From Sphingomonas edaphi (GTDB taxonomy: Bacteria; Pseudomonadota; Alphaproteobacteria; Sphingomonadales; Sphingomonadaceae): a DNA stretch of 64,000 bases. The position numbers were made by a program, and so were the translations under genes. Positions 33,865 through 59,937 of the stretch are shown in pieces (position 1 is the stretch's first letter; each line of letters opens with the position of its first letter). The notes under the pieces are model-generated. The model searched no databases. It was not told the origin of the DNA and saw nothing but the letters and a program-made list of their open reading frames with translations. Where the stretch lies: the NCBI RefSeq assembly GCF_003583725.1, contig NZ_QXTF01000004.1, positions 1-64,000 on the forward strand, written 5' to 3'.

Positions 33865-35658
33865 ATGACTACTTCCCCTTCGACCACCCAAGCGCGCCCC
33901 GGATCCTACGAAGAAGGCCTTCAGAACGGCTACCGGCTGCTTGACCGGGATCCGGCTTCCGCCATCAAGCAGGCTGAAGCATTGGTTCGCACCGCAAAAG
34001 ATCCAAGGGCGTTTCGGCTTGCAGCGGCTGCCCTGCGGAAGCTGGGTCATCAATCTGAGGCCGAAGGTGCAGAGCTCGGGGCCATCGAGGCCGGGTTCGC
34101 CGATCCACGCCTCAAAGCCATCGCTGAGGCCGAAGCAGACGGGCGAAGCAACGATGCGCTTGTCCAGGCGCAGTCCGCGTTGAACCGACAACCAGACGAC
34201 CTCCTAGCCCTAACTTTAGCAGCTGAGTCGTTGCTGAGCCTGTGGCGGACGGAGGAAGCCGAAGCTGCACTGCGAACCGTACTGGGCCGAGCCCCAGGCT
34301 ATCTTCGGGCGTCGATGCTGCTCGCGCACTGCGTAGAACGTCAGGTGAAGCCACGAAATGCGATCGCGGTCGTGGACGAGATATTGAAGCGGAAGCCCGA
34401 TAACCAGGCCGCCCTGCGCCTCGCCGTGACTTCTCGGGCAGAAGTGAACGACCACGAGGAAGTGGTGAAAATTTCCGAGAAGCTGACCGCGCTCGAACCC
34501 GAGAACGTGGGTTACTGGGTGCACCTTGGTCACCATTACCGCATTGTTGGAAGGCGGGCCGATGCCATCCGGGCATTCCGGCGCGCGATCGCCCTCGACG
34601 AGTATAATGGTTCAGCCTGGTGGAGCCTGGCCAACTATTTCCGTGACGGCCTGGCCCAAGAAGATGCCGAGACCATTGAGCGCGGGATTAGCGCTGGCGG
34701 CGGCACTCTCGACGAAGGCAACTTGCGGCTCGCGAGCGGCATCATCGCGGAACGCTCCGGCGATCTGGAGCGAGCTGCCCAGCAGTTCATCGCGGGGAAA
34801 AAGATTCGCCTGGAAGCTCAGCCCTATGATCCTGAACTGGTCGGCCAGGCCGTGTCCGGATTGATCAAGGTTCTAACTCCCGGGCTCGTCAGCCAGCGGA
34901 GCCAGGCAGGCTATAAGGACCCTGCTCCCATATTCGTTCTTGGAATGCCCCGAGCAGGTACGACGCTTGTTGAGCGCATTCTTGGGCGTCACGACGAGAT
35001 CGAAGGTGTTGGTGAGCTCTCAATCCTCAACCGGCTGGCTGAAATCGCCCGGCGCCGGACAACGATGAAGGATGAATTTGCGGCGCTGATCACTGAGATC
35101 TCCGACGAGAACCTGCATTGGGTCGGCCAGCGCTACATCGAAGCATCGCGAGATTATCGTAAAACAACCAAGCCGCATTACATCGACAAGGCCAACCTCA
35201 ATTGGATTCACGCCGGTCTTATCCTCATGGCCCTTCCTGGCGCCAAGATCATTGATGTCCGGCGTAACGCACTCGATTGTTGCTGGGCCAACTTCAAGAT
35301 GCTGTTTGCCGATCGATACCCGGCCACGAACGACCTGAGGCATATCGCTCGCTTCTATCGCGACTATGTCCGCCTGCTCGATACTCTCGCGGCTATTGCC
35401 CCCGGACGAATTCTCCAGGTTCGATACGAGGACGTCGTGGACGACATCGAGGGCCAGACCCGCAGGATGCTCGAGTTCCTTGGGCTCCAGTTTGATCCGC
35501 GATGCGTTGATTTCCACCTGGCGACCGATGCCGTGGCGACTGCGAGCAGCGAGCAAGTCAGGAAGCCGTTGAACCGGGAAGGGATTGGATCCGCTGAGCC
35601 TTACCGCCAGTGGCTTGGCCCGATGATCGAGGAACTAGGCGAGCTGGCTGGGCGGTAA
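33865..35658 (+). CDS. TPR-repeat sulfotransferase family protein
   Basis: The 597-residue protein has tetratricopeptide repeats across residues ~15-300 (units such as [20 protein letters not shown]) and a C-terminal sulfotransferase domain. The PAPS 5'-phosphosulfate loop is [18 protein letters not shown], and [14 protein letters not shown] fits the 3'-phosphate motif. It would transfer sulfate from PAPS to a carbohydrate, lipid or protein acceptor, with the TPRs binding a partner or acceptor. It stands divergent from ahcY; the link that PAPS and SAH chemistry share sulfur metabolism is suggestive only. No clear ribosome-binding site precedes the ATG. The stop is 1 base from the convergent yqgE gene. 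Confidence 0.9.
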
Positions 35659-37562: not shown

Positions 37563-37943
37563 ATGAGTACCCCCGTTCGCGTTCTTGTCTGCGATGACGA
37601 TCCCCTCTTGCTTGAACTCCTCGAATTCCGACTAGCCGCGAAGGGTTTCGATGTGCAGGCTGCCCGTGACGGCGGCGAGGCCATGCAACTCCTGGAGTCA
37701 AAGCCACCATCGGCCGTCGTTCTCGACGCAATGATGCCGTTCATCGACGGCTACGAGGTCCTGCGCCGGATCCGGGAAAACCCAACATTGAAAGCTCTGC
37801 CGGTCATCATGCTGACCGCGAGAAAGCAGGAGAAGGATATTGTGGGAGCTCTTGAGTTGGGAGCGTCGGACTTCCTCGCAAAGCCTTTTATTCCCGAAGA
37901 ATTAGTCGCGCGGTTGATCCGACTGACTGGTCCAGCCCAGTGA
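37563..37943 (+). CDS. Single-domain response regulator heading the exopolysaccharide-like operon
   Basis: This 126-residue receiver has the acidic pair in LVCDDDP, phosphoacceptor Asp55 in AVVLDAMMP, the Thr of MLTARK and the Lys of FLAKPF, so it should be phosphorylatable. It lacks an output domain. Its stop overlaps the start of the next gene (GTGA at 37940-37943), tying it to the barrel, HEAT and glycosyltransferase genes. It is the natural acceptor for the Hpt protein of the convergent operon at 41393-44180, an inference from neighbourhood. It could act by binding the HEAT protein or the synthase. Confidence 0.88.
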   Translation: MSTPVRVLVCDDDPLLLELLEFRLAAKGFDVQAARDGGEAMQLLESKPPSAVVLDAMMPFIDGYEVLRRIRENPTLKALPVIMLTARKQEKDIVGALELGASDFLAKPFIPEELVARLIRLTGPAQ

Positions 37944-38953
37944 GGCTCGGGTTCGCTTGCCTGGCTTTGGGCATCGCCATTCCTGCAACGGCTCAGTCGC
38001 CCGACCCTTATGCGGAAGCTGTGGAAGCACGAAGGGCGGCAAACCCTGCACGCGCGGCCTCCATTCTCGAGCAAGTCCTCAAGGCTGACCCCGCAAACAG
38101 CGATGCGCTTGTTCAGTATGGATATTCATTGCTGGCACTGCGAAGGCTCGACGACGCGGAAGCCGCCTTCCGGCAGGCCTTGGCGGTTGCGCCCAACTAC
38201 CAGGACGCGCGGGACGGCTTGGAACTCGTAACCCAGCGACGAAAGGCCGCTCCTGCCCCTGCAGCTACTCGGTTCAAACTCGACCTTGATGGTGGCCTCA
38301 CGTCAGTGAGCCAGGGCCAACCGGACTGGCGCGATGCCTCAGTCCAGCTTCGCTATGATCAAAACAGTGCGGTTGTCCTGACCGGCCGGGTTGAGCTGGC
38401 TCGCCGCTTTCGCCGGACCGACGTCTACGGCGAAGCACGCGTAGACTTCCGGCAAGGCAACGATTTGTCTGGCTACCTGCTCACCGGGGGAACACCGGAT
38501 GCCGATTTCCGACCCAAGGTACAGCTGGGTATGGGAGGCTCTGCGAAAATCGGCGGCACTTCCAATCCCACGATTGCAACGCTGGATGCTCGATGGGCCG
38601 ACTATGCTTCTGGTGAAGTCTGGACGCTCAATCCTGGCGTCCAGCAGTATCTCGGCGGCGGCCGGGTCTGGTTGACGGCCCAGTGGATCAACATTTTCCA
38701 GGGCAGCGATCACAGCAGCGGCTGGCTCGCCCGGGCTGACTATCTCCCCACTCCCAAGCTGCGCCTTTTCGGCGGCGTCGCCAACGCTCCAGACATTTCT
38801 GAGGGCGTTGTGCTTCGAACGTCCAGCCAGTTCGGTGGCCTTGCACTCGGGATAACAGACAATCAGGACGTTCGCCTGTCGGTGGCGCATGATGATCCTG
38901 ATGGCAGTGCCAAGAGGACGTCGATTTCCATTGGTACTGGAATTCGGTTCTGA
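37940..38953 (+). CDS. TPR plus YaiO-family outer-membrane beta-barrel protein
   Basis: The 337-residue protein has a signal peptide ending IPATAQ, two tetratricopeptide-like repeats at ~25-100 (ANSDALVQYGYSLLALRRLD), then a beta-strand-rich domain ending RTSISIGTGIRF with a C-terminal Phe. This is the layout of YaiO-type barrels and a reduced version of PgaA, where TPRs and a barrel export poly-GlcNAc. It is likely the outer-membrane exit for the polymer made by the glycosyltransferase two genes downstream. GTG start overlaps the receiver stop; its own stop overlaps the next ATG by 1 base. Confidence 0.82.
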   Translation: MRLGFACLALGIAIPATAQSPDPYAEAVEARRAANPARAASILEQVLKADPANSDALVQYGYSLLALRRLDDAEAAFRQALAVAPNYQDARDGLELVTQRRKAAPAPAATRFKLDLDGGLTSVSQGQPDWRDASVQLRYDQNSAVVLTGRVELARRFRRTDVYGEARVDFRQGNDLSGYLLTGGTPDADFRPKVQLGMGGSAKIGGTSNPTIATLDARWADYASGEVWTLNPGVQQYLGGGRVWLTAQWINIFQGSDHSSGWLARADYLPTPKLRLFGGVANAPDISEGVVLRTSSQFGGLALGITDNQDVRLSVAHDDPDGSAKRTSISIGTGIRF

Positions 38954-39990
38954 TGGGCCTGCTGGACCTTTGGGACATTTCCCTGGCCCTTGCCGCCCTC
39001 TCCCTCGCAATCATGACCGCCCTGGTTGTCGGTCGCTTCATCACTGAGCGGCGCAGACGAAACATCCTCGAGCAGCGCAAGCTCCTGATGCCGCTCCTCC
39101 TTGGCGGCAAGAAGCGGACCGCACTTACTGAACTTGCAGTACCCAAGTGGTTGTTGGCTGCGCTCTCCGTCGAACTGGTACAGCTCGTGCGCGGCGATGA
39201 ACGGGCCCAGATCGCGGCGGCAGCGACGGACGCTGGCGCAGCAGCCGAGCTCCAACGCCAGGCAAGACGAGGCTCTGCTCGCAAACGGGCCTCTGCGGTT
39301 GAAGCCCTTGCCTATTTTCACGACGACAAGAGCAGTGAAACGCTGGCCCTCGCGCTCAGCGACAAAAGCCCGGACGTTCGTCTTGCGGCCGCGATGGCCC
39401 TGGCAGAATCCGGCCGGGCTCCCGCTGCCGAGCGCCTGATGGAAACGCTCGGCCTTGGGGTCAGCGAAAACTCCATGCTTATCGTCAGCCTCTTCCAGAA
39501 GATTGCTGCTTACCGTCCCGCCGAAATCCGCGATCTCATTCTCCTCCCCACGGTCCCCAATTCCGTCAAAGCCGCTGCCATCGACGCGCTTTCAGCCTCG
39601 CAGGATTATGGCCTCGTCAAAACCATCAACGAACTGGCGCTCCGCACCGACCCTTCGAGCGAGGACCTCCCCCGGTTTTTGCGAGCGCTCGGCGCTTTTT
39701 CGCATCCCGGCGGAGCACCTGCTGTCCGTCATTGTTTGTCGGCCCCAACCTGGTGGGTTCGCGCTGCGGCGGCCGAGGCAGCTGGCCGCATCGGCATGTC
39801 GGATACCGCCTTCAAGCTTGGCGAGATGTTATCCGATCCCGACTGGTGGGTCCGCTTTCGCGCAGGCGAGGCCCTCGTCCGCTTGGGGAGCGAAGGCAAA
39901 ACCATCTTGTCTAGAATCAGCAAAGGCAAAGCAGAGCCGGCCCGAAGTGCAGCCCGCCTGACCCTCGCCGAACAGGGAATCCCGGCATGA
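38953..39990 (+). CDS. Membrane-anchored HEAT-repeat protein
   Basis: The 345-residue protein has one N-terminal membrane helix (ISLALAALSLAIMTALVVGRF), a basic stretch, and then helical HEAT-like repeats, for example ALSDKSPDVRLAAAMALAESG and MLSDPDWWVRFRAGEALVRL. These repeats usually scaffold protein contacts. Between a beta-barrel and a glycosyltransferase gene and sharing overlaps with both (TGATG upstream, ATGA downstream), it probably bridges or regulates the synthase at the cytoplasmic face. This role is inferred. Confidence 0.82.
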   Translation: MGLLDLWDISLALAALSLAIMTALVVGRFITERRRRNILEQRKLLMPLLLGGKKRTALTELAVPKWLLAALSVELVQLVRGDERAQIAAAATDAGAAAELQRQARRGSARKRASAVEALAYFHDDKSSETLALALSDKSPDVRLAAAMALAESGRAPAAERLMETLGLGVSENSMLIVSLFQKIAAYRPAEIRDLILLPTVPNSVKAAAIDALSASQDYGLVKTINELALRTDPSSEDLPRFLRALGAFSHPGGAPAVRHCLSAPTWWVRAAAAEAAGRIGMSDTAFKLGEMLSDPDWWVRFRAGEALVRLGSEGKTILSRISKGKAEPARSAARLTLAEQGIPA

Positions 39991-41405
39991 TCGAGTGGCA
40001 GCCTTGGGTCATCACGATGGCGACCACCATTGCCTGGGTCGTCATCATTACCGGCCTTCTCCAGATCGGCCTCTACATCGTCCAGCTCGTCTATGCGGCA
40101 ATATCATTGGCCAACCGTCCGCCGGTATCCCGCTCGTCCTTGCTTTGGCAACGCTACAGCGACCGGGCTCCGCCCATCGCGGTATTGGCGCCGGCCTTCA
40201 ATGAAGTGGTTACCATCGTCGAGAGCGTAAATTCGCTCCTCTCGCTGCAGTATCCGCAGATGGAGGTCGTCGTCATCAATGACGGCTCGACCGACGAAAC
40301 TTTGGAGCGGCTCATCGACCAGTTCGCGCTCCAGCCCGTCGACCGCTACTATGATCTCACCGTCCGACACGCCCCAATTCGCGGCCTCTACGCGTCGCCC
40401 CGAATTCCCAACCTTCTCGTCATCGACAAGGAAAATGGCGGGAAGTCGGATGCGCTGAATGCCGGCATCAACGTTGCCCGTTCCCCGCTGTTCTGCTCAA
40501 TCGACGCGGACTCCATCCTGGAATCCGACGCTCTTCTTCGAGCCGTTCGCCCCTTCATTGAGAAGCCCGATGAAGTGATTGCCGTCGGCGGGACGATCCG
40601 GCTGGCAAATGGAAGCGATATTCACGCGGGCCGGGTGACGCGTGTCCGATTGCCTCGCAACTTCCTCGCGCTTGTCCAGATCGTCGAATATTTGCGCGCG
40701 TTCCTGATGGCTCGCCTGGCGCTGAGCCGGATGCAGGCTCTAACCGTGATCTCCGGCGCATTTGGTCTTTTCAGGCGGCGCCTTGTGCTTGAAGTCGGCG
40801 GCTACAGCCATGGGACCGTCGGCGAAGACATGGAGCTAGTGATCAAGCTTCACCGGCACATGCGCGAACAAGAGAAACCCTACCGGATCGAGTTTATTCC
40901 TGAACCGGTGTGCTGGACCGAGGCACCTGGAGACCTCACAATTCTTGGACGACAGCGGGCGCGCTGGCAGCGAGGATCACTCGAGACCTTCGTCAAGCAC
41001 AAGGACATGCTCTTCAATCCACGCTACGGCCGCATCGGGTTTCTGGGCTTTGGCCAGATCCTGGTCGTCGATGTGCTGGGCCCCGTGATCGAGGTCGCGG
41101 GCTACATCCTCGTGCCGCTGCTGTGGAGCGTCGGGCTTCTGTCGATCGAATATCTTCTCGCCTACCTCGCCATCACCTTCACGTTCGGCATTTTCGTGAG
41201 CGTCGCGACGCTGATCCTCGAGGAGGTCGAACTGCGCCGTTTCCCGAAGCCCACTGACCTTATCGTCCTGACGGTTGTCGCGATCGTGGAGAATTTTGGA
41301 TATCGGCAGCTCAGCAATTTCTGGAGGCTGCGCGGACTTTGGCAGTTCCTCCGCAAGCAGCAAGGCTGGGGCCAGATGACCCGCCGAGGCTTTCAGCGCG
41401 CCTGA
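39987..41405 (+). CDS. Processive-type family 2 glycosyltransferase (PgaC/BcsA-like synthase)
   Basis: The 472-residue membrane synthase has an N-terminal helix pair, a GT2 catalytic domain and a C-terminal membrane region of about four helices. The motifs are complete: Asp in NDGSTDET, SIDADS, the base in TVGEDME and QRARW (QxxRW). This pattern marks processive synthases that polymerise and push out polysaccharides such as cellulose, hyaluronan or poly-GlcNAc. The sugar cannot be read from sequence. No PilZ domain is visible, so c-di-GMP control of the BcsA kind is not indicated. It overlaps the Hpt gene end by 13 bases, tail to tail. Confidence 0.9.
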   Translation: MIEWQPWVITMATTIAWVVIITGLLQIGLYIVQLVYAAISLANRPPVSRSSLLWQRYSDRAPPIAVLAPAFNEVVTIVESVNSLLSLQYPQMEVVVINDGSTDETLERLIDQFALQPVDRYYDLTVRHAPIRGLYASPRIPNLLVIDKENGGKSDALNAGINVARSPLFCSIDADSILESDALLRAVRPFIEKPDEVIAVGGTIRLANGSDIHAGRVTRVRLPRNFLALVQIVEYLRAFLMARLALSRMQALTVISGAFGLFRRRLVLEVGGYSHGTVGEDMELVIKLHRHMREQEKPYRIEFIPEPVCWTEAPGDLTILGRQRARWQRGSLETFVKHKDMLFNPRYGRIGFLGFGQILVVDVLGPVIEVAGYILVPLLWSVGLLSIEYLLAYLAITFTFGIFVSVATLILEEVELRRFPKPTDLIVLTVVAIVENFGYRQLSNFWRLRGLWQFLRKQQGWGQMTRRGFQRA

Positions 41406-41671
41406 ACCACCCGGATCTCCGCGATCAGGTCCTCGACCAAGTCGCCAATCGTATCGCGAGTGGCGCCGTCTCTAATCGCATTCTCCAGCGTCTCTGCTGA
41501 CGTGCTGAGTGCAGCATAGCCGTACATCCCCGCGCTTCCGCTCAGGCGATGAACGACTGCCTCCAGATCCTCCAACGATAATGCCTCGTCGAGGAGTGCC
41601 CGGCGATCACCGGCCAGCCGAGCAAGAAAGCGAGAGCGGAGCGCTTCGAACTTCTCGTCAAAGTTTCTCAT
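41393..41671 (-). CDS. Histidine phosphotransfer (Hpt) protein
   Basis: The 92-residue four-helix Hpt domain has the phosphoacceptor His41 in VVHRLSGSAGMYGY. It lies last in the hybrid kinase-receiver-Hpt operon and overlaps the receiver by ATGA. Its 3' end overlaps the 3' end of the glycosyltransferase gene. It should relay phosphate between the kinase and one or both receivers of the locus. Confidence 0.88.
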   Translation of the reverse strand: MRNFDEKFEALRSRFLARLAGDRRALLDEALSLEDLEAVVHRLSGSAGMYGYAALSTSAETLENAIRDGATRDTIGDLVEDLIAEIRVVQAR

Positions 41672-42039
41672 TTCGCCAGGTGCGCCCGAACGGTTGCAGC
41701 CAAAGTCATGGGATCAAATGGCTTCGGCACCACCCCTTCTGCTCCGAGGCGGAGGTAGGTCGCCACATCAGCAGCCTGCGTTCGCGCCGTGCAGAACAGG
41801 ACCGGCGGCAAGTCTTCCAGCATCCTCGCCTGGAGGATGCCGAATGTTGTCGGTCCATCCATTTCCGGCATCATCACGTCGAGCAAAATGATGTCGGGCT
41901 GCCAGTCGCAGACGAGTGCAATGGCGTCTTTCCCGGATGCGCAGGTACGAACCTCGAAGTCCAAATCAAGCTCAAGCGCCATGGCTGCGATTTCCCGGAT
42001 ATCGTCTTCATCGTCGACGTAGAGCACCCGGTCGGTCAT
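41668..42039 (-). CDS. Single-domain response regulator of the phosphorelay
   Basis: The 123-residue receiver has DDEDD near the N-terminus, Asp54 in ILLDVMMPEMDG, Thr in CTARTQ and the Lys of VPKPFD. It lacks an output domain. The ATG overlaps the kinase stop by 1 base (TGATG), and its stop overlaps the Hpt start. It may be a phosphate sink or carry the signal to a target encoded across the junction. Confidence 0.9.
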   Translation of the reverse strand: MTDRVLYVDDEDDIREIAAMALELDLDFEVRTCASGKDAIALVCDWQPDIILLDVMMPEMDGPTTFGILQARMLEDLPPVLFCTARTQAADVATYLRLGAEGVVPKPFDPMTLAATVRAHLAK

Positions 42040-44180
42040 CAGACTTCCTTTTGCTGGACCCGCTCGAGCGTCACCCGGACGAGCGTATCGAGGTCCGATT
42101 TGGACTTGGTGAGACAGGCATCGACCGGCACGTCCGTCATGGCTTCCTCGTCCCTAGCGGTAAAGAGGATGATCGGCGCCTCGTCGTTGGTCTTCCGGAT
42201 CAGCGGGATGAGGTCGAGACCGTTTCCATCGTTCATCCCGATGTCGAGAATGACCCCGTCGAACTCGAAGCGCTGCAGGGCCGCCTCGGCTTCCCGCACG
42301 CTCGGCGTTGAGTGCATCGTGGCCTTGCCCTCGAACGCGCTGGCGATCAGCCTCAGCATGTCGGGATCGTCATCGACATGAAGCACAGAAGGTAAGTCTG
42401 CTTCGCTTAATCGCTCAAGCTTTAGAGTGCTCTGGGCGACGGCATCGAAACTGCTGACCAGCGGAAATTCGACGTTGAAGACCGTCCCCTCGCCTTTGCG
42501 GCTATCAAAGCGAACTTCCCCGCCCATCCTGAAGACCAGTTCGCGCACGATCGAGAGCCCAAGTCCCGTTCCGCCCTTTTGGCGCGCATCGGTCGAGTCA
42601 GCTTGAGAGAACTTGCTGAAGATCCGGCTTTTGAACTCTTCGGGTATCCCATCGCCCTTGTCGACGACGCTGATGATCGCGCTGTCGTCGATTTTCCTCG
42701 CCGAGATCACGACGTCAGCGCCTTTCGGCGAGAATTTCACGGCGTTCGAAACAAGGTTCGTGAACACCTGCATGAGGCGGTCATGATCGGCGTGGATTTC
42801 CCAGTCGGTTGGGCAAGGCTCTTCGACCAGCCCGACTTCATGCCTTTCTGCGTATGCGTGGTTCGCCTGCACTACATCGCTCAGGATTTTGCACAGTTTT
42901 ACGGGACGAAGGTCGAAGTGCAGCTTCCCGGACTCGATTTTCTCAATGTCGAGGATGTCATTGATGAGACGAATAAGCCGTTCGCTATTGTCATGCGCGA
43001 TTTTTACGAGACGCAACGCCTTTGGCGGCATCTCTCCGGCCGCCCCTCCACTTAAGAGCCCGAGCGAGCCGGCAATCGACGTCAAAGGCGTCCTGAGTTC
43101 GTGGCTGACGGTCGCGACAAATTCGGACTTCAAGCGCTCAGTGCGCCGGCGTTCCGTCGCATCCCGGGCGACGGCCAAGTAATGTAGCCCGTCTTCGAGC
43201 TGGATTGGCGTGGTCACAACTTCGACTTCGATGTCCGTTCCGTCTCCGCGTAAGCCGATGAAATCCCGCTTGCCGAGGCTGGAGGGAGCGCCTTTTGCAA
43301 GGCTGTCGAGGTAGGCTGCGCTAACCTCTTGGCTCGGCGGCTCCTTGAAGAGGACTAGGTTGGACTGGCCGACCAAGCTTTTCCGGGTCCTGTCAAAGAG
43401 CCTCTCGGCGGCTGAGTTCGCCGTTTCGATGATGCCTTTTTGGTCCAGCATCATCATGGCGTCGGTCGCGCCTTCATAGATTGCGGCCTGGCGAACGGCG
43501 GAGTCTCGCATGTCTGCTGAATTGGCTTCGACCTGGCGGACGTTTCGCAAGAGACCGACGACCATGAGGAACACGGCCAGTAGCAGAGCGAGTTCGACGA
43601 GGAGGATTGCCCGTTGTTGTGCGTATCGCTGACTGGCCGCGCCAGAGACCAATTGCCGCAGCTTTACCTGTTCGCGGTTTGTTAGCTGATCGGCGAGAGA
43701 CCGGGCCCGGTCCATCATGGCCTTGCCGTAACCTTCCCGAACGAGGGAGATCGCGCCAGCGCTGTTGCCTGCATTTAGCAAGCGGATGATTTCCGAGGAT
43801 CGCTGTGCGCGGGCCGCACCGGTCTTCAACAACTGGGTCGTCAACGCTGCGTCCGTGGCATCTGCCCCCGTGAAACGCTGCAATTCTTCGTGAGAGTGCT
43901 TCAGTCGGCCGATCGCCAGGTTGAACGGCTCGAGAAACTCCTCGCTCTCGGTGACCATATAGCCCCGCTGGCCATTCTCGATGTCGCGGAGAATGGTCAG
44001 ATAGCCGTCGATCATTGCCAAGCGGTCATTGGATGCCTGGACGGCAACTCGGATCGAGGCTTCAGACTGGAATTGCCGCCATTGGAGCATGGCGAGCAAA
44101 AGGACGAGCGCCACCGTCATGGTCCCAGCCACTAGAGCAAGCAGGCGTGAGCCGGACTGGGAGGAGAGACGCGGTACCAT
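42039..44180 (-). CDS. Hybrid histidine kinase with CHASE3-like sensor, PAS and receiver domains
   Basis: About 713 residues. Two membrane helices (about residues 12-32 and 185-208) flank a periplasmic CHASE3-like helical sensor with the RDIENGQRGYMVTESEEFL motif. A PAS domain, a HisKA domain with SHELRTPLTSI (His360), an ATPase domain (GGTGLGLSIV) and a C-terminal receiver with VILDIGM follow. It should start a His-Asp-His-Asp relay through the neighbouring Hpt and receivers. The ATG at 44180 is chosen; an in-frame TTG 16 codons earlier is possible, and neither has a clear ribosome-binding site. Confidence 0.9.
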   Translation of the reverse strand: MVPRLSSQSGSRLLALVAGTMTVALVLLLAMLQWRQFQSEASIRVAVQASNDRLAMIDGYLTILRDIENGQRGYMVTESEEFLEPFNLAIGRLKHSHEELQRFTGADATDAALTTQLLKTGAARAQRSSEIIRLLNAGNSAGAISLVREGYGKAMMDRARSLADQLTNREQVKLRQLVSGAASQRYAQQRAILLVELALLLAVFLMVVGLLRNVRQVEANSADMRDSAVRQAAIYEGATDAMMMLDQKGIIETANSAAERLFDRTRKSLVGQSNLVLFKEPPSQEVSAAYLDSLAKGAPSSLGKRDFIGLRGDGTDIEVEVVTTPIQLEDGLHYLAVARDATERRRTERLKSEFVATVSHELRTPLTSIAGSLGLLSGGAAGEMPPKALRLVKIAHDNSERLIRLINDILDIEKIESGKLHFDLRPVKLCKILSDVVQANHAYAERHEVGLVEEPCPTDWEIHADHDRLMQVFTNLVSNAVKFSPKGADVVISARKIDDSAIISVVDKGDGIPEEFKSRIFSKFSQADSTDARQKGGTGLGLSIVRELVFRMGGEVRFDSRKGEGTVFNVEFPLVSSFDAVAQSTLKLERLSEADLPSVLHVDDDPDMLRLIASAFEGKATMHSTPSVREAEAALQRFEFDGVILDIGMNDGNGLDLIPLIRKTNDEAPIILFTARDEEAMTDVPVDACLTKSKSDLDTLVRVTLERVQQKEV

Positions 44181-44916: not shown

Positions 44917-47454
44917 ATGCTGGCCACTTTGCCGGCGGGTGCATTGCGCCAAGCCCCCTTTGCCAACGGGCTCTTTGCCGCCGCCTTAGTCGCCGTCTTT
45001 TTAATAGGTGGTGGCGGCGCTGAAGGCTTCGCCAAGAACGGGCTGCTCGCTGCTGCGGGCAGCCTGCTTCTTTTTAGCGTTCTGGCCGACCAGTTCGGGC
45101 GCGCTGCGTCCATTCCCCGTTATTCCTGGCCAATCGCGATTGCGGGACTGCTCCTGCTCGCAGTGCCTGTCATTCAGCTAATTCCCCTGCCCGCTGAGAT
45201 GTGGAAGCAGCTCGCCGGGCGCGAAAATGCTGTTCAGGCTCTTTCCCAAGTTGGCGCTGCTAACAGCTGGCGGCCACTGACGCTTGACGCGGAAGCGACC
45301 ATCCGCAGCGCGACGGTCATGCTGCTTCCGGTTGCGCTGCTGTTACACACCCTGCGCTCGTCAGGCGCGCACCGCCACCGCCTTCTCCAGCTAATCGCGG
45401 TGTCCGCAGCGATCAGCGGACTCATCGCGGCCGCCCAGCTTGCCCTCGGGAGCCCCAGCTGGTTGACCTTTTATGGCAAGCCGAGCGTCGGCGCCGCGTC
45501 CGGCCTCTTTGCCAATCCCAACCACCAGGCCCTTTTTATGGCGATCGCCATGGTGGTCTGCGCCATGCTGATCCGGACGATGCCGGCAGTGCGCTCGCGC
45601 AGGAAGTCCCAGGTATCCGGCATCAAGCTGGCCTGCTGGTTCGGCATCCTGTTCTTTGCCGTCATGTGTCTTGCCGCTGGCGCGCGGGCGGGCGTGTTGC
45701 TGCTTGGCCTTGCAATCCCGGGCTCGCTTCTCATCGCCATGGGTAGTGGATCCACGCTTCGCTGGACGGCAGCGTTGGGCGGCGTGCTTGCGCTCCTCTG
45801 GCTGATCGTCCTGCTCTACCCAGGCACCAACTCTCTTGGTCTTCGGGAGAGCTTCCGCGTCGGTGAAGATGCGCGCTATGCTTACCTTCCAGACATTCTT
45901 TATACGCTCGAGCAATATTGGAAGTCCGGAAGTGGCCTTGGTACGTTCGTCCAAGTCTTCTCGCCGAACGAAAATCTTGATCTCGCCCAGCGTGGTTTCC
46001 TTAATCACGCTCACAACGACCTGCTTGAGTGGCTGACGGAGACCGGCGTGATCGGCGCCGCATACCTCGCCATTGCCGCAGCGGCTCTCGCCTACGCGGT
46101 ATACCGGGCAGTAAAGGTCAATCATCGCGACCTCGGCATCATCATGGGCGCCGTGCTGATTATCCTCCTGGCGGTCCTTCACAGCCTTGCAGATTATCCG
46201 CTTCGCACTCTGGCGCTGGCTTCCCTGTTCGCCTTTGCCGTCGGTCTGCTCGGCAATCCTCCCAAGGAGCGTGAAGAGACTTCAAAGCGCAGCAAGATGA
46301 TTACGGCGATTGCCGTCGTCCTTGCGCTCCCGATCGCCGTCCAGGCGGTAAGAGTGAGCATGGCGGAGGCTGCGATCCGGGAAGGTCAGCCAAGTGCTGC
46401 AGCGGCATTCATGCCAGCCAACGCGTTCGTGAAGGTCGATCAATCTGGCCAGGCTTTCCGCGCCAAGGACTGGAAACGCGCTGAGCAACTGGCCGCCGAT
46501 GCCATCATCGCCCGCCCCATGACGGCCTCAGCCCTTCGCAGCCTCGCACTGGCCCGTGAAGCCCAAGGCAAGCCGGCCGGGCAAACCTGGCAATTGGCAA
46601 GCGCACTTGGCTGGCGCGACCCGCCAACGCAGTTCTGGGCGTTCCAGCAAGCCTTGAGCGAAAATGAATATCAGACGGCTGTCCTTCGCGCCGGCGCCCT
46701 ACTTCGCACAACAGAGCCGCCGGCAAGCTTCATCCGGATCTTCCGGATTGCGACGATGGATCCGCAGTTTGCGGAGGCAGTTGCCAACCGTATGCGGATC
46801 GAGCCGCCGTGGCGCGCAAAGTTCTTCCAGTTGTCAGCCGACCCTAATCCGGATGAAATCCGCGGCCTCATAACGACGCTGAAGGCGCAGGCCGCGATCG
46901 ACGCGGCTCCGCGGCGCTCGGACATCCGCAGTCTCGTCAGTTATCTAATCGGCAAGAAGCGATACGCCGACGCGATGCAGGTCCGGTCCCTGCTTGGGCC
47001 CAATGATCCAGCTGTCCTACTCGAGGATGGTGGCTTCGATCGCCCGAAGGAAGATTATGCGAAGGATTCGACCCTGTTCGATTGGCAGGTGAGGTCAGGC
47101 AGCAGCGCCACCGGCTCAGTTGAGCCTGCTCCACCTTCACACCTTGTCGCGGATTCGAAGGGTGACCGCATCGACATTGCCGCCGAACGATATCTGCAAT
47201 TGCCGCCAGCGGCCTATCGGCTGACCTATCGCGCCAGGGCTGATGCTCCGGAATCGTTCCGGGTGCGATTGCTTTGCGCACCAGCTAATGAGCTGGCTGC
47301 GCAGATCATCCCGCAAAACAATAGGTATGAACCTGCTGTCGTCGATTTCACCGTCCCCCAAGGCTGCCTGCTCACGAGGTTGGTTATTGAAGGCCTCGCT
47401 ACGGGACGCCCTGCGGCGGCAGAACTAGACGAGTTCGAACTGTCAGCGAGATGA
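44917..47454 (+). CDS. O-antigen ligase/Wzy-like polymerase with large C-terminal extension
   Basis: The 845-residue protein has about 12 membrane helices over residues ~1-465, with the periplasmic-loop motif of the Wzy/WaaL family: FANPNHQALFMAIAMVV and GFLNHAHNDLLEWLTETG. The C-terminal ~380 residues are soluble, TPR-like at first (AWKRAEQLAADA-type helices), then strand-rich. In a gene order with Wza and Wzc it most likely polymerises the undecaprenyl-linked repeat units. GGGGG precedes the ATG. A polymerase or ligase with such a long tail is unusual. Confidence 0.85.
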   Translation: MLATLPAGALRQAPFANGLFAAALVAVFLIGGGGAEGFAKNGLLAAAGSLLLFSVLADQFGRAASIPRYSWPIAIAGLLLLAVPVIQLIPLPAEMWKQLAGRENAVQALSQVGAANSWRPLTLDAEATIRSATVMLLPVALLLHTLRSSGAHRHRLLQLIAVSAAISGLIAAAQLALGSPSWLTFYGKPSVGAASGLFANPNHQALFMAIAMVVCAMLIRTMPAVRSRRKSQVSGIKLACWFGILFFAVMCLAAGARAGVLLLGLAIPGSLLIAMGSGSTLRWTAALGGVLALLWLIVLLYPGTNSLGLRESFRVGEDARYAYLPDILYTLEQYWKSGSGLGTFVQVFSPNENLDLAQRGFLNHAHNDLLEWLTETGVIGAAYLAIAAAALAYAVYRAVKVNHRDLGIIMGAVLIILLAVLHSLADYPLRTLALASLFAFAVGLLGNPPKEREETSKRSKMITAIAVVLALPIAVQAVRVSMAEAAIREGQPSAAAAFMPANAFVKVDQSGQAFRAKDWKRAEQLAADAIIARPMTASALRSLALAREAQGKPAGQTWQLASALGWRDPPTQFWAFQQALSENEYQTAVLRAGALLRTTEPPASFIRIFRIATMDPQFAEAVANRMRIEPPWRAKFFQLSADPNPDEIRGLITTLKAQAAIDAAPRRSDIRSLVSYLIGKKRYADAMQVRSLLGPNDPAVLLEDGGFDRPKEDYAKDSTLFDWQVRSGSSATGSVEPAPPSHLVADSKGDRIDIAAERYLQLPPAAYRLTYRARADAPESFRVRLLCAPANELAAQIIPQNNRYEPAVVDFTVPQGCLLTRLVIEGLATGRPAAAELDEFELSAR

Positions 47455-47562
47455 AGTTTGAAGCGGCTAAAAATATGAAAAACTTGATAATTGTTTCAAA
47501 AAGTTCCAATGGAACCGCGCTTTCGACCTTCTCGTCGGGCCAGCGTGTTGCGGAGAATGACG

Positions 47563-48261
47563 ATGCCTAATCGATCTTTTGTTTCCTTGTTCAGCCTCGC
47601 GCTTTGCGCTTGCGGCGGAGGCATTGGTCTCGATCAGAACTCGACCGCTGTTCGGGTAGCGCAGGCCCTCCCCCCCCCTGACCAGACGGTGACCGCTGCG
47701 GACTTTACCAACTACCGTATCGGTGCGCTGGACGTGATCAGCGTTACCGTTTTTGACGCTCCGGAACTGGCACGTGAAGGCGCTGTCGATGAAGCCGGCA
47801 ATTTCGCAATGCCACTCGTTGGGTCGGTCCAGGCCGGCGGCAAGACGCCCCAGGAACTGGGCGACGCGATCGCAACGAAGCTCAAGGGCCGCTATCTCAA
47901 GAACCCGCAGGTCGCGGTGAACATCAAGGAAGCTCGTGCTCGGACCGTAACCATTGATGGCTCGGTCGTGCAGCCCGGCGTTTATCCGATTGTCGGCAAG
48001 ATGACGCTTCAGCAAGCCGTCGCGACAGCACGCGGCGCCAATGAATCGGCCGACATCGATAAGGTTATCGTCTTCCGCACGGTTAGCGGCCAGAAAATGG
48101 CTGCGATGTTCAACCTGCGGGACATTCGTTCCGGTCGCTACGCCGACCCGGAAGTTTACGGGAATGATATCGTCGTGGTGGGTGAAAACTCCGCCCGGCG
48201 TTTCTTCCGCGACGCGACGATGAGCTTCCCGCTCCTCGCCCGCTTCGTACCCGTTCTTTAA
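47563..48261 (+). CDS. Polysaccharide export lipoprotein (Wza/GumB-like)
   Basis: This 232-residue protein has a lipoprotein signal ending LCAC and the polysaccharide-export domain YRIGALDVISVTVFDAPELA, followed by SLBB-like segments (VTIDGSVVQPGVYP). It forms the outer-membrane channel working with the Wzc-like kinase. I choose the ATG at 47563 because GGAG lies 7 bases before it; earlier in-frame starts (47491, 47557) add non-signal sequence. It is 15 bases upstream of the Wzc gene. Confidence 0.92.
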   Translation: MPNRSFVSLFSLALCACGGGIGLDQNSTAVRVAQALPPPDQTVTAADFTNYRIGALDVISVTVFDAPELAREGAVDEAGNFAMPLVGSVQAGGKTPQELGDAIATKLKGRYLKNPQVAVNIKEARARTVTIDGSVVQPGVYPIVGKMTLQQAVATARGANESADIDKVIVFRTVSGQKMAAMFNLRDIRSGRYADPEVYGNDIVVVGENSARRFFRDATMSFPLLARFVPVL

Positions 48262-48276
48262 TCAGGAAGTCTCTTA

Positions 48277-50532
48277 GTGTCCGATATCCGTGACCTTGCT
48301 GGCCCCGCTGGGCCTGGCTCATCAATCCAGGCCTATGCGCCTGGTGTCCCCGCGCTTGCCGGCAACTATTTCGGTGAGATTCCGGGAGAGCCCGAAGAGT
48401 CACTGGTTCGGCACTATTGGCGGATTTTTTACCGCAACCGCTGGATCATCGGCGGCATAACAGCGGCCTGCCTCGTGCTGGCCCTGCTCGTCAGCATGAT
48501 GATGCAGCGCCAGTATACTGCGACGGTTCGCCTGCAGATTGCGCGCGAGGCTGCCAAGGTCGTCGATGTCGAGAGCGTGGACTCCCAGGAAAGCTCGGGG
48601 CCGAACCTCGAATTTTACCAGACTCAGTATGCACTGCTGAAAAGCCGTTCGCTGTCTGAAGCGGTCGTTCGGGATCTGCGCTTGGCCGACAATACAAGCT
48701 TCCTTACCGACCTTAATGACGACCGCGCCGATGACATTCAGGCCTTGTCGCGCGATGAACGGTTCAAGCTTGCGACCGAGAAGGTCAACGCTAACACCAA
48801 GGTCGCGCCACTTCCGGGCTCGAGCGTTGTTGACGTGAATTATGTCGCTGCCAGCCCTGCCCTTGCGGCCACCATTGCGAACTCGCTCGCCGACAACTTT
48901 ATCGAGACCAACCTCTCTCGGCGCTACGAAGCGACGACCTACGCCCGTAAATTCCTCCAGGACCGCATCAATGCGACGCGTGCCAAGCTCGAGGAATCCG
49001 AGCGGAAAGCGGCCGAATATGCGCAGGCGCAAGGCATCATCAAAGTTGCCAGCGAAGGCGGTGAAGGTCGTGTTTCCAGCGAGCAGACTCTTGCCTCGGC
49101 CGATCTTACCCAGCTGAGCGCTCAGCTTGCGCTTGCCCGCGCAGCACGTGTCCAGGCGGAAGCCGACTACCGCGCCAACAGTGGCGGTGCTGCAGCGGCA
49201 TCCTCGCTCACCAATAGCGCAGTCAACCAGCTTCGTGGTCAGCGGGCCGAACTCACCGGTGAGCTCAGCAAGCTCCAGAGCGACTTCGGACCTGAATATC
49301 CCAAGGTTGCAGCGCTGAAGTCGCAGATTGCCGAGCTCGACCGCCAGATCGGACGTGAACAAGGCCGCGTGACGTCGTCGGTCTCGCAAGGTTTGGCGGA
49401 CAAGTACCGGCAAGCGCTCGCTAACGAGCAAGGGCTCCAGGCGCGGGTGAATGGCCTGAAGTCGGCCGTCCTGGACCAGCAACAGCGCTCGATCCAGTTC
49501 AACATCATTCAGCGTGACGTCGATACGAACCGCGCGCTCTATGACGCGCTCCTCCAGCGCTTCAAAGAAGTCGGCGTGGCAGCCGGCGTCGGCACGAACA
49601 ACGTTTCGATCGTCGATGCAGCGTTGGCGCCGGAATCGCCGTCGCAGCCCAATCTTCCGCTGAACCTCGCCATCGGCCTCCTGTTCGGCCTTCTGGCTGG
49701 CGGCGGAACGGCGCTTGTCCGTGAGCAGCTCGCTGACGCGGTCATTCTTCCGGCGGAATTCCAGCAAAAGCTTGGGATCAAGCTTCTTGGAACAACGCCA
49801 AAGCTGTCGGCGGCCGAGGTCGCGGAGCAGCTGGCTCAGGGACGTTCGGACCTGTCGGAAGCATACTTCTCGATCCTGACGGCGATCCAGTTCTCGTCGG
49901 GAAGCCGGGCACCAGCATCCATGCTGTTCACCAGCACGCAGGCCAACGAAGGCAAGTCAACGACAGCGCTGGCAATCGCACGGTCGCTCGCCAGCGTCGG
50001 TTCCAGGGTGCTCATCATCGACGGCGACATGCGCAATCCGTCGCTGCATCGTAATTTGAAGCAGCCCATGGCGCATGGCGTCAGCGACGTCCTGTCGGGC
50101 AAAATCCAGTGGAATGAAGCCATTCAACCGATCGGTTCGTCTGGCCTATCGGTCATGCTTGCCGGCCGCATGCCGCTCAACCCGGCTGAGCTTCTGGCCA
50201 CCGACGGCTTCGACAAGCTCATGGAGAATGTCGGCCACGCCTTCGATCACGTGATCGTTGACGGACCGCCGGTCCTCGGACTCGCTGACTCCATTCTGCT
50301 CGCTCGGTCCTGCGAATCCGCAGTGTTCGTAATCGAAGCCGGCCGCACCCGCGCGTCGCAAGCGCGCATGGCTATTAATCGCCTGAATGCGGTGCGTGCG
50401 AATATCCTGGGTGCAATCCTCACCAAGCTCGATGCCAAGGAGCAGGGATACGGGGATAATTACGGATACCAATATGCGTATGCGCAGCAAAAAGAACCCA
50501 AGAAGCTCTCGGAGATTCTGAAACTTCGCTGA
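48277..50532 (+). CDS. Polysaccharide co-polymerase / tyrosine autokinase (Wzc-like)
   Basis: The 751-residue protein has an N-terminal Wzz domain with a membrane helix (IIGGITAACLVLALLVSMMM), long coiled coils to ~430, a second helix (LNLAIGLLFGLLAGGGTALV), and a C-terminal BY-kinase domain. That kinase has the Walker A ANEGKST (Gly559-Lys560-Ser561), Walker A' VLIIDGDMRNP and Walker B HVIVDGPPVLG. The tail YGDNYGYQYAYAQQ is a tyrosine cluster for autophosphorylation. It controls chain length and coordinates polymerase and export. GTG start with AGGAAG upstream. Confidence 0.94.
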   Translation: MSDIRDLAGPAGPGSSIQAYAPGVPALAGNYFGEIPGEPEESLVRHYWRIFYRNRWIIGGITAACLVLALLVSMMMQRQYTATVRLQIAREAAKVVDVESVDSQESSGPNLEFYQTQYALLKSRSLSEAVVRDLRLADNTSFLTDLNDDRADDIQALSRDERFKLATEKVNANTKVAPLPGSSVVDVNYVAASPALAATIANSLADNFIETNLSRRYEATTYARKFLQDRINATRAKLEESERKAAEYAQAQGIIKVASEGGEGRVSSEQTLASADLTQLSAQLALARAARVQAEADYRANSGGAAAASSLTNSAVNQLRGQRAELTGELSKLQSDFGPEYPKVAALKSQIAELDRQIGREQGRVTSSVSQGLADKYRQALANEQGLQARVNGLKSAVLDQQQRSIQFNIIQRDVDTNRALYDALLQRFKEVGVAAGVGTNNVSIVDAALAPESPSQPNLPLNLAIGLLFGLLAGGGTALVREQLADAVILPAEFQQKLGIKLLGTTPKLSAAEVAEQLAQGRSDLSEAYFSILTAIQFSSGSRAPASMLFTSTQANEGKSTTALAIARSLASVGSRVLIIDGDMRNPSLHRNLKQPMAHGVSDVLSGKIQWNEAIQPIGSSGLSVMLAGRMPLNPAELLATDGFDKLMENVGHAFDHVIVDGPPVLGLADSILLARSCESAVFVIEAGRTRASQARMAINRLNAVRANILGAILTKLDAKEQGYGDNYGYQYAYAQQKEPKKLSEILKLR

Positions 50533-50593
50533 CGAAGTATTCAGGGACGTTAGAGTATTCTGCTTTTGTTGTTTGTAGGCGTGGTGAAACAGG

Positions 50594-52531
50594 GTGTTGC
50601 GTCAAGTTTACTCGTACCTGCCAGAGCTGGTCGCACTGCCTCGCGCAGTGCGCCGCCTTTTGGTCGTTGCGGCAGACCTCGCAATTTGTTCTTTTGCAGT
50701 CTGGATTGCCTTTTGGCTACGCCTAGGCGAATGGGATTGGGTTAACCTACCCGTCATCCAGTTCATGGTGCTGGCGAATGCCAGCTGGCTAATCGCCGCC
50801 TTCGCCGGCGGCACCTACCGTTCAGTCATCCGCTTCTCAGGAAGGCATACTGTATTCCGGATGATTCCGGTGTTCATCGGCATGTCGTCGATGCTCGCTG
50901 CGGTGCTGTTTACTCTGCACCCTCCCGGCATCCCAAGAACCCTCTCGGTCCTTCATCCCCTCGTCTTCTTCTTTGGAGCTGCGACCCTTCGCGTCGCGGC
51001 AGCCCAAATCATCTGGGACGCCATTCACGCTCGTTCCCGGCTTCCTAACTGCAAGCGCATCCTGATTTATGGAGCGGGATCCGCCGGGCAGCAGCTCGCC
51101 CACTCGATGCGGCACGAGCCTGGCATGATCCTAGTCGGGTTCATTGACGATAACCGCGCGTTCAAGGGGCGCATTCTCGAGGGCAAGACCATCTGGCACT
51201 CCTCGCAGCTCGAGCGAGTGCTGGCCCGTGAAGATGTCAACGAGGTATTTCTCGCGATGCCTTCGGCGTCCCGGCAGGCCAAGCGCGAGATCGTCGACCG
51301 GCTCAATCACACGAAAATCAAGGTTGCGGTTCGGTCCCTCCCCTCAATCTCTCAGATCGCCTTTGACCATGTGTCGATCAATGACCTAAAAGAGGTTCAG
51401 ATCGAAGAGCTGTTGGGTCGGGACGAAGTAGCACCGGACGAAGCTCTCCTCGCCCACGACATCCGTGGCAAGGTTGTAATGGTGACCGGCGCCGGTGGAT
51501 CGATCGGCAGTGAGCTTGCCCGTCAGATCCTGCGCCAATTTCCCAAGCACCTCATTCTTGCGGACCAGTCGGAGTATTCGCTCTATCGCATCGATGCCGA
51601 GCTTCAGGACATCAAGAGGCGCGAGAACCTCGAACTAGAGATCACGCCCGATCTCGCCAACGTCGCGGACGAGGATGACTGCGCCCGCCTGTTTGCACGC
51701 TGGATGCCGCAAACGGTCTTCCACGCGGCGGCATACAAGCATGTGCCGCTCGTTGAAGCGAACCGCATCGCAGGCATTCGCAACAACGTGCTGGGTACGC
51801 TTCATTCAGCGTTGAACGCCGAATTGGTTGGCACCGAGAAGTTCGTCCTGATCAGCACGGACAAGGCCGTTCGTCCAACGAACATCATGGGCGCCAGCAA
51901 GCGCGCCTGCGAACTGGTGATCCAGTCGCGCGCGGAAGCCCAGTCGCGCACTAACTTCACTGCCGTCCGGTTTGGCAACGTGCTGGGTTCGAGCGGTTCG
52001 GTCGTGCCGAAGTTTCGCGAGCAGATCGCGCAGGGTGGCCCGGTCACGATAACTCACCGTGACGTCACCCGCTATTTCATGACGATCCCGGAAGCCGCCC
52101 AGCTCGTCATCCAAGCGGGCGCCATGGCCAACGGCGGCGAAGTCTTCCTTTTGGACATGGGGCAGCCGGTAAAGATTGCGGACCTCGCGGCAGCCATGAT
52201 CGAGCTTTCAGGCCTGACGGTCCGCACCTTGGACAATCCCGAGGGCGACATCGAAGTCGTCGAGGTTGGCCTTCGCCCTGGCGAAAAGCTGTATGAAGAA
52301 CTGCTCATCGACGCAGACGCGGAAGAAACGAACCATCCGCGTATAGTCCGGGCACGCGAGGAAAGCCTGAGCTGGCTGACACTATGCGACGTGCTCGAAC
52401 ACCTGCGCAAGTCGCTCCATCGCTTGGATGAGCAACAAGCGGTGAAGACGCTTCTGGGTCTCGTTCCAGGCTATCGACAGCCCCATGGGAGCATTGAACC
52501 GGAAGAGGCGCGAGAAGTTATCGCGGCCTAA
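50594..52531 (+). CDS. UDP-GlcNAc 4,6-dehydratase-like protein (PglF/CapD type)
   Basis: The 645-residue membrane protein has four N-terminal helices, a middle Rossmann-like segment (ILIYGAGSAGQQLAH), and a C-terminal extended SDR domain with TGAGGSIG at residues 298-305 and STDKAVRPTNIMGASKR. That NxMGASK form, with Met in place of the usual SDR Tyr, marks PglF/FlaA1-type 4,6-dehydratases. It should convert UDP-GlcNAc to the 4-keto-6-deoxy sugar, the first step toward bacillosamine. The aminotransferase, acetyltransferase and PglC-like genes needed next lie on the other side of the recombinase island. GTG start; the last gene of the plus operon. Confidence 0.9.
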   Translation: MLRQVYSYLPELVALPRAVRRLLVVAADLAICSFAVWIAFWLRLGEWDWVNLPVIQFMVLANASWLIAAFAGGTYRSVIRFSGRHTVFRMIPVFIGMSSMLAAVLFTLHPPGIPRTLSVLHPLVFFFGAATLRVAAAQIIWDAIHARSRLPNCKRILIYGAGSAGQQLAHSMRHEPGMILVGFIDDNRAFKGRILEGKTIWHSSQLERVLAREDVNEVFLAMPSASRQAKREIVDRLNHTKIKVAVRSLPSISQIAFDHVSINDLKEVQIEELLGRDEVAPDEALLAHDIRGKVVMVTGAGGSIGSELARQILRQFPKHLILADQSEYSLYRIDAELQDIKRRENLELEITPDLANVADEDDCARLFARWMPQTVFHAAAYKHVPLVEANRIAGIRNNVLGTLHSALNAELVGTEKFVLISTDKAVRPTNIMGASKRACELVIQSRAEAQSRTNFTAVRFGNVLGSSGSVVPKFREQIAQGGPVTITHRDVTRYFMTIPEAAQLVIQAGAMANGGEVFLLDMGQPVKIADLAAAMIELSGLTVRTLDNPEGDIEVVEVGLRPGEKLYEELLIDADAEETNHPRIVRAREESLSWLTLCDVLEHLRKSLHRLDEQQAVKTLLGLVPGYRQPHGSIEPEEAREVIAA

Positions 52532-52552
52532 GTCTGGGAAAAGAACTGCGAC

Positions 52553-52581
52553 GGCCGATATCGCCGGCCTCGATACCTTTT
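52553..52581 (+). terminator. Possible terminator of the plus-strand polysaccharide operon
   Basis: A 5-bp stem GGCCG/CGGCC with a 7-base loop, 22 bases after the 4,6-dehydratase stop, is followed by TCGATACCTTTT. The T-run is displaced from the stem, so confidence is low. Confidence 0.4.
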
Positions 52582-52697
52582 GTTAAACGCCTGCAGCTAC
52601 GCGCCGCGCAGTATCAGTTGCGTAGTAGACATTATGTATCCTCAAATCGAAGTTCACGAAGCGGACTGCTTCCCTGGCGCGTCGGGCGACCACCAGC

Positions 52698-57205: not shown

Positions 57206-57254
57206 TAGGTCGGCTGAGAGCGCCCATGACTGAGGTGGTGTTGGACCGGTTTGC

Positions 57255-57294
57255 CGAGGGTCGATGTTCTTCTAGAGCGAACGACCGACCCTCG
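57255..57294. terminator. Hairpin between convergent recombinase and MobA-like genes
   Basis: A perfect 9-bp stem CGAGGGTCG/CGACCCTCG (57255-57263 with 57286-57294) with an inner GTTC/GAAC pairing lies 50 bases after the recombinase stop and 12 bases before the MobA-like stop. It is placed as a bidirectional terminator, though the T-runs are weak. It could also be a recombination site. Confidence 0.5.
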
Positions 57295-57306
57295 ACCGTC
57301 TAAGAC

Positions 57307-57978: not shown

Positions 57979-57979
57979 G

Positions 57980-58591: not shown

Positions 58592-58721
58592 AACTGGTTC
58601 TCCAGCGCGTCCCGGCTCCACCAAGGGACGCATTTCATTAAACGGGTGGAGCCGTGAGCTCCCCGTTCTTCGCTCTGTTACTTCCTTCTGGCGTCAGAGT
58701 TGGACTTACCCCGCTCGGAGA

Positions 58722-59936: not shown

Positions 59937-59937
59937 T

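Follow-up and report, generated by a model that had tools for sequence, protein, structure and literature searches.

Synthase-dependent exopolysaccharides provide the principal matrix of many biofilms; the known control of such synthases is mostly exerted by cyclic di-GMP (c-di-GMP). Here we examine a seven-gene locus of Sphingomonas edaphi (assembly GCF_003583725.1, a genome of 2.37 Mb) in which a glycosyltransferase of family 2 (GT2), a HEAT-repeat protein and a putative outer-membrane exporter lie beside a phosphorelay. The locus is found on contig NZ_QXTF01000004.1, whose first 64,000 nucleotides, the whole stretch analysed, are called the window. A preliminary description of this DNA had suggested that a His-Asp relay acting on the HEAT protein switches polymer synthesis. 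The full relay set is indeed present, but it is the HEAT protein, not the relay, that accompanies the GT2 most constantly.

Organization of the locus

The open reading frames (ORFs) give seven genes in two convergent operons between positions 37563 and 44180 of the window:

37563..37943, plus strand: single-domain receiver, 126 amino acids (aa); PF00072 at 2e-30; first gene of the overlapping plus-strand quartet
37940..38953, plus strand: tetratricopeptide repeat (TPR) protein with a YaiO outer-membrane beta-barrel, likely the export pore; 337 aa, GTG start; PF19413, TPR_19 and TPR_14 above the Pfam cut-offs
38953..39990, plus strand: HEAT-repeat protein, 345 aa, with one predicted membrane helix at the N-terminus; HEAT_2 at 102 bits, HEAT also matched
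39987..41405, plus strand: processive GT2 synthase, PgaC-like; 472 aa; PF13641
41393..41671, minus strand: stand-alone histidine phosphotransfer (Hpt) protein, 92 aa; PF01627 at 4.5e-9; phospho-accepting His at residue 41
41668..42039, minus strand: second single-domain receiver, 123 aa; PF00072 at 1.7e-25
42039..44180, minus strand: hybrid histidine kinase with the order transmembrane segment-CHASE3-transmembrane segment-PAS-HisKA-HATPase-REC; 713 aa, ATG start

In the plus-strand operon the receiver and barrel genes overlap by 4 bp, the barrel and HEAT genes by 1 bp, and the HEAT and GT2 genes by 4 bp; in the minus-strand operon the kinase and receiver genes overlap by 1 bp and the receiver and Hpt genes by 4 bp. 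The two operons converge at their 3' ends, where the GT2 and Hpt genes share 13 bp. Matches above the Pfam cut-offs are Glyco_tranf_2_3, Glycos_transf_2 and Glyco_trans_2_3 for the GT2, and CHASE3, PAS, HisKA, HATPase_c and Response_reg for the kinase, whose analysed form begins 12 bases before the ATG at 44180. The convergent operons, their overlaps of 1-4 bases and the seven genes had been proposed beforehand, and the ORFs together with the Pfam and NCBIfam domains bear them out. The proposed lack of a PgaB deacetylase and of PilZ likewise stands, since Pfam gives no match to PilZ or a deacetylase (E <= 0.01), nor to GGDEF, in the seven proteins. Nor does Pfam find a DNA-binding domain in any of the seven, or an output domain on either single-domain receiver.

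The GC content of the genes (57.5-63.1%) is ordinary beside that of the window (59.6%), and recent foreign DNA was rejected as the origin of the locus on this basis. A scan for promoters and terminators returned sites no more numerous than in shuffled sequence.

The HEAT gene as the constant neighbor of the synthase gene

Loci were collected from other genomes by choosing the GT2 on its own score alone, ignoring the HEAT protein. An order survey of 296 genomes (GT2 at E <= 1e-60, HEAT at E <= 1e-10) gave 24 GT2-positive and 23 HEAT-positive genomes, all 23 of the latter falling within the 24, and a phylum survey of 398 genomes gave 13 with the GT2. Seven candidates were scored per genome for HEAT, four to six for the GT2 and three for the kinase. 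After removal of the window genome and of one genome shared by the two draws, the surveys together yielded 34 GT2-selected loci; neighbors outside the window are mechanical ORFs, whose lengths may be overstated. A HEAT gene lies directly upstream of the GT2 gene in all 34, including one weak match at 35 bits (L095), and a YaiO-family protein is encoded upstream of HEAT in 33.

A class survey of 240 genomes, read to E 1e-15, found 14 with a GT2 match. The E-values jump from 3e-143 to 3e-38 with nothing between, so this GT2 is a distinct group. Among the three additional members, HEAT adjoins the GT2 in two (L102, L103) and the contig is too short in the third (L101), bringing the total to 36 of 36 assessable loci, one of them weak. 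None of nine lower-scoring GT2s (L104-L112) has a HEAT or YaiO neighbor within the stretch fetched. In a scan of the whole window genome, both HEAT_2 matches at E <= 0.001 fall in the HEAT gene of the locus; with this gene as the sole holder of such matches, chance adjacency is no serious explanation, and a HEAT-GT2 partnership is well supported by linkage.

The pair is also widespread. A second survey, selected on HEAT, gave 62 loci, with a full adjacent GT2 in 55, a partial GT2 at the contig end in two (L042, L045) and contigs that stop before the GT2 in two more (L017, L022). HEAT-GT2 pairs occur in Alpha-, Beta- and Gammaproteobacteria, Verrucomicrobiota, Gemmatimonadota and Bacillota, the last represented by Planococcus-type, Alkalicoccus and Syntrophomonadaceae loci, in which no barrel gene was seen. 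Within the window's own genus the system is rare, being present in 2 of 22 genomes with its own counted. Three pairs of contigs (L008/L077, L009/L070, L034/L091) were taken as identical, and each is counted twice in alignments and locus tallies.

The HEAT protein is probably a dedicated core subunit of the synthase that can be addressed by a receiver, because HEAT-GT2 loci exist without a receiver upstream. The idea that it is a mere relay scaffold was rejected, as it remains with the GT2 where no receiver was found.

Properties of the HEAT protein, synthase and barrel

Hydropathy places a hydrophobic stretch at residues 9-27 of the HEAT protein, and when the threshold of this simple scan is relaxed slightly, 40 of 42 family members show an N-terminal stretch too. 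The predicted structure (mean pLDDT 94.1, pTM 0.82) has a single helix at residues 3-50, followed by a helical solenoid at 55-340. Near its end the protein carries a signature, W-x-V-R at residues 267-270 and WWVRF at 298-302. In the last repeat D295, V300 and R301 are found in 42 of 42 members, W298 in 40 and W299 in 38; in the penultimate repeat R270 is found in all 42 and W267 in 34. The signature is kept although identity to the window protein falls to 15%. For HEAT-selected loci this evidence is partly circular, as one of the three search patterns holds WWVRF. A D..VR..A..AL pattern is common to HEAT repeats in general, and the family-specific part is therefore the tryptophans, which look to be the best candidates for a contact with the GT2. 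The HEAT protein shows no likeness to E. coli PgaD, and a sequence search of the PDB returned only distant GT2s (cellulose synthase included), the designed alphaRep and other HEAT proteins.

The GT2 had been called PgaC-like, which agrees with its resemblance to E. coli PgaC (28% of residues identical across 350 aa; E 2e-33), closer than to YaiP or BcsA, but its score lies far below the cut-off of the PgaC_IcaA family (TIGR03937; 137.3 bits against 422.3). Five distant members of the GT2 family reach 121-137 bits on the same profile, and the CelA profile is likewise not passed (48.7 bits against 699.1). The nearest named relative, from a Sphingomicrobium metagenome-assembled genome, is 84% identical. 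Processive GT2 synthases are marked by DGS, DxD, (T/G)ED and QxxRW motifs and by transmembrane helices, and this family has both the motif columns and hydrophobic stretches, C-terminal ones included. In an alignment of 90 sequences, 89 keep DGS, and the two Asps of DxD are found in 88 and 89; the ED motif has its Glu in 82 and its Asp in 88, and the fixed positions of QRxRW are conserved in 87-88. The C-terminal part of the GT2 also has a conserved NFGYRQ. In two Verrucomicrobiota loci a nucleotide-sugar dehydrogenase is encoded directly downstream of the HEAT-GT2 pair (L041:12156-13316, L043:12474-13781), which hints at uronic acid in the polymers of those two loci only.

The barrel protein passes the YaiO barrel family (TIGR04390) with 122.2 bits against a cut-off of 32. 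E. coli PgaA is matched weakly by the barrel family profile (22 bits, in a six-sequence set); the window barrel is YaiO-type and short. At L089:5854-7194 a receiver and a YaiO-type barrel share one open frame, with the receiver Asp replaced by Ala. This fusion is odd, as a receiver is expected in the cytosol and a barrel in the outer membrane.

The operon receiver and the phosphorelay

In 32 of the 34 GT2-selected loci the barrel gene is closely preceded by a gene for a stand-alone receiver; none was found in L098, and the receiver of L089 is the one in the frame of the barrel. Five barrel-less loci also have a receiver upstream (L019, L046, L051, L053, L059). From each locus one receiver shorter than 230 aa was taken out of the 4.5 kb upstream, and these 68 were aligned with that of the window; the phosphosite Asp (Asp55 in the window receiver) was present in 67 of the 69 and replaced by Glu in 2. 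Larger receiver-bearing ORFs, of 239 aa lying 3 kb upstream in L043 and of 257 aa in L047, were not counted as stand-alone receivers.

By its residues the locus holds a complete multistep His-Asp-His-Asp set, made up of the kinase His, the Asp of the kinase REC, the Hpt His and the receiver Asp. Kinase residues H364, D650 and K696, numbered from the longer start, are invariant in 18 aligned sequences. The 18 convergent-locus kinases all have CHASE3, PAS, HisKA and HATPase, and 17 have REC. The phospho-accepting His is kept in 30 of 30 aligned Hpt proteins, and the window Hpt is one of three matches in its genome at E <= 0.05.

Conservation of the kinase operon beside the synthase operon, on which the preliminary description had made its reading depend, holds within the clade of the window and gives way to other sets elsewhere. 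In the GT2 tree this clade has 28 tips, two duplicate contigs included; a convergent Hpt gene lies beside 23, an in-line ORF that matches kinase, receiver and Hpt domains beside two (L006, L021), and neither form beside three (L005, L073, L079). Outside the clade, L093 has a convergent Hpt with the kinase upstream, Brevundimonas has kinase, receiver and Hpt following on the same strand, and L038, L046 and L055 have an Hpt-REC-REC protein, the Hpt of L046 falling below the Pfam cut-off. The kinase operon was therefore rejected as an invariant part, on the same-strand order in Brevundimonas, on genome G207, which has a different 541-aa kinase ORF on the opposite strand, and on genome G270, whose best-scoring kinase relative is far from the GT2 and has neither an Hpt nor a receiver next to it. 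The operon receiver, by contrast, stays in front of the barrel even where the kinase set differs or is not seen in the vicinity, so that only the kinase set is exchangeable.

Of the 296 order genomes, 24 have a relative of the kinase at E <= 1e-75, which in ten of them, that of the window included, adjoins the GT2. This search scored three candidates per genome, and a missing kinase match is weak evidence. Five of the places were read. In two of them, L116 (7289-10964) and L118 (6932-10698), from the GT2-negative genomes G171 and G264, a kinase-receiver-Hpt set related to that of the window is followed by a LuxR-type response regulator and lies near chaperone-usher pilus genes; the usher match is weak, and in L118 below the cut-off. 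Two others, L119 and L120, have a kinase and receiver with no Hpt detected. A relay of the same kind thus serves another surface structure, with a transcription factor as its apparent output. In the window locus the output-less receiver fills the position of the LuxR-type regulator, which would favor control at the protein level.

Comparison with known systems

PgaABCD of E. coli, which makes poly-beta-1,6-GlcNAc, shares with the locus a TPR and outer-membrane barrel protein and a PgaC-like GT2. In contrast to PgaABCD, the seven locus proteins include no PgaB-type N-deacetylase and no PgaD-like protein (Pfam), and have the HEAT protein and receiver instead; membership in the Pga family was rejected on these absences and on the missed PgaC cut-off. 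The YaiO/YaiP locus of E. coli K-12 has YaiO near a GT2, as here, and the window GT2 is 27.5% identical to YaiP over 240 aa. However, in K-12 the acyltransferase gene yaiX, interrupted by IS2, lies between the YaiO and GT2 genes, and no HEAT or receiver is among the 15 annotated features of that stretch. BcsABC shares a processive GT2 and an exporter, with 22% identity between the window GT2 and E. coli BcsA, but the locus lacks PilZ, has no BcsB or BcsZ match among its seven proteins and stays far below the CelA cut-off; Bcs membership was rejected on the missed cut-off and absent PilZ.

Two further systems were compared through parts of the papers that describe them. XagABCD of Xanthomonas is a glycosyltransferase operon for a biofilm polysaccharide (PMC3609779); it is likened to the window locus by description as another glycosyltransferase operon, and a term search of the text of that paper finds no "HEAT". 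HmrABCX of Caulobacter crescentus, in which a hybrid kinase and putative Hpt proteins control holdfast polysaccharide, resembles the window locus in joining a phosphorelay to a surface polysaccharide, and the abstract and outline of the paper mention no HEAT synthase operon (PMC11481889). Among the papers listed by searches of PubMed Central (PMC) literature, which omits most subscription papers, none treats a HEAT-GT2 polysaccharide system as judged by title, opening of the abstract or term counts; two of the lists covered 15 of 233 and 20 of 30 papers. Within that scope, the earlier statement that no characterized system of this exact set is known is upheld.

A proposed model for synthesis and its control

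Judged from its genes, the locus very probably directs the synthesis and export of a surface polysaccharide. The reading that fits best is a novel variant among the synthase-dependent exopolysaccharide systems, consisting of a GT2, a dedicated membrane HEAT protein and, in diderms, a TPR/YaiO exporter; most of the sampled Proteobacteria add a receiver in the operon, supplied by a phosphorelay that can be exchanged. We propose that the locus encodes a HEAT-GT2 exopolysaccharide synthase that is switched post-translationally through relay-dependent docking of the receiver on the HEAT protein, and we give this proposal a probability of about one half. The GT2 would polymerize a UDP-sugar and extrude the chain. 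The single N-terminal helix would hold the HEAT protein in the membrane with its cytosolic solenoid lying against the GT2, and the TPR/YaiO protein would take the chain through the periplasm and outer membrane. Phosphoryl groups would pass from the His of the CHASE3 hybrid kinase to its own REC, then to Hpt and on to one or both receivers. The output-less stand-alone receiver would act as a phospho-switch, its phosphorylation state altering its docking on the HEAT protein and so turning the synthase on or off after translation. Within this scheme we infer polymer synthesis, the HEAT-GT2 and receiver-HEAT contacts, the direction of the switch and the identity of the polymer; a switch from receiver to HEAT protein appears to be the most likely mechanism. 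In a bolder form, which we hold only tentatively, HEAT-GT2 would be a separate and widespread synthase class, gated by the HEAT solenoid in place of PgaD or PilZ, in which the phosphorylated receiver switches polymerization directly, post-translationally and without c-di-GMP, with kinase sets exchangeable between lineages.

Several observations weigh against this proposal. No GT2 accompanies three distant HEAT matches (L054, L056, L063). Seven HEAT-GT2 loci, read for at least 9 kb upstream, have no receiver there (L036, L041, L049, L050, L061, L062, L066), so receiver control is not universal, and in L089 the receiver is fused in frame with the barrel and has lost its phospho-Asp. Kinase relatives occur in 13 order genomes outside the GT2-positive set, which means that the relay is not confined to this synthase; the relative in G270 is far from its GT2. 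Finally, the window genome carries 11 GGDEF and 13 PilZ matches outside the locus, and REC-PilZ or REC-REC-GGDEF proteins stand alongside distant HEAT-GT2 pairs: a deltaproteobacterial pair is followed by REC-PilZ (L044:8179-9207) and an Alkalicoccus pair is preceded by REC-REC-GGDEF (L065:7590-9239), which suggests c-di-GMP input in some HEAT-GT2 lineages.

Some of these points belong equally to other explanations. Receivers of the Spo0F type act as relay intermediates or phosphate sinks, and the operon receiver could be no more than that, with HEAT, GT2 and YaiO forming the polymer machine and control being transcriptional, through a DNA-binding regulator elsewhere. The LuxR-type regulators that accompany related kinase-receiver-Hpt sets in L116 and L118 fit such an arrangement, as do the seven receiver-less loci and the presence in one relay of two single-domain receivers, which allows for a sink. 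We nevertheless consider it rather unlikely, given that none of the seven locus proteins has a detected DNA-binding domain and that the receiver lies just before the barrel in 32 of the 34 GT2-selected loci and is retained there where the kinase set varies or is unseen nearby. Alternatively, c-di-GMP could gate the synthase as in PgaC/PgaD or BcsA, directly or via a free PilZ protein, leaving the relay to tune only expression or a diguanylate cyclase. Several of the genomic PilZ matches are in short open frames, the L044 and L065 neighbors point the same way, and the Caulobacter Hmr relay has been suggested to act on c-di-GMP synthesis through DgcB (PMC11481889). This explanation seems improbable in view of the HEAT protein, which is unlike PgaD, and of seven locus proteins with no PilZ or GGDEF domain. 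As to the earlier claim of a His-Asp relay rather than c-di-GMP, the complete relay and the lack of PilZ and GGDEF at the locus stand, but the contrast with c-di-GMP is neither upheld nor rejected; independence from c-di-GMP was dropped as a finding in light of the genomic GGDEF and PilZ matches and of L044 and L065.

The enzyme might also be no polymerase at all, making instead a glycolipid or short envelope glycan, with YaiO in some other envelope role. Its distance from the PgaC (137 vs 422) and CelA (49 vs 699) cut-offs and the Bacillota loci without a barrel would accord with this. The QRxRW and ED motifs and C-terminal hydrophobic stretches are nonetheless those of processive synthases, a YaiO-family protein lies upstream of HEAT in 33 of the 34 loci, and a nucleotide-sugar dehydrogenase directly follows the two Verrucomicrobiota pairs; we regard a non-polymerase as very improbable. 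If the receiver-HEAT switch is correct, HEAT-GT2, found in monoderm and diderm phyla and usually preceded in Proteobacteria by an output-less receiver, would represent a second way to gate such synthases, and a named sequence signature and a small gene set are now available for testing it.

Adjacent DNA

Next to the locus, at window positions 44917-63363, is a Wzy-type polysaccharide cluster. Its genes encode an O-antigen ligase-like protein, a polysaccharide export protein (SLBB), a Wzc-like protein and an epimerase/dehydratase and, on the other strand, an aminotransferase, a sugar acetyltransferase, a phosphoglycosyltransferase-like protein, a family 4 glycosyltransferase and an acyltransferase. 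Inside the cluster, at 54044-57205, a 1053-aa frame with no Pfam or NCBIfam match resembles, by eye, a large tyrosine recombinase (HCLRHSF ... MGHTG ... SYQH). Slightly upstream of the locus, at 34435-35658, lies a gene for a TPR and sulfotransferase (Sulfotransfer_3) protein.

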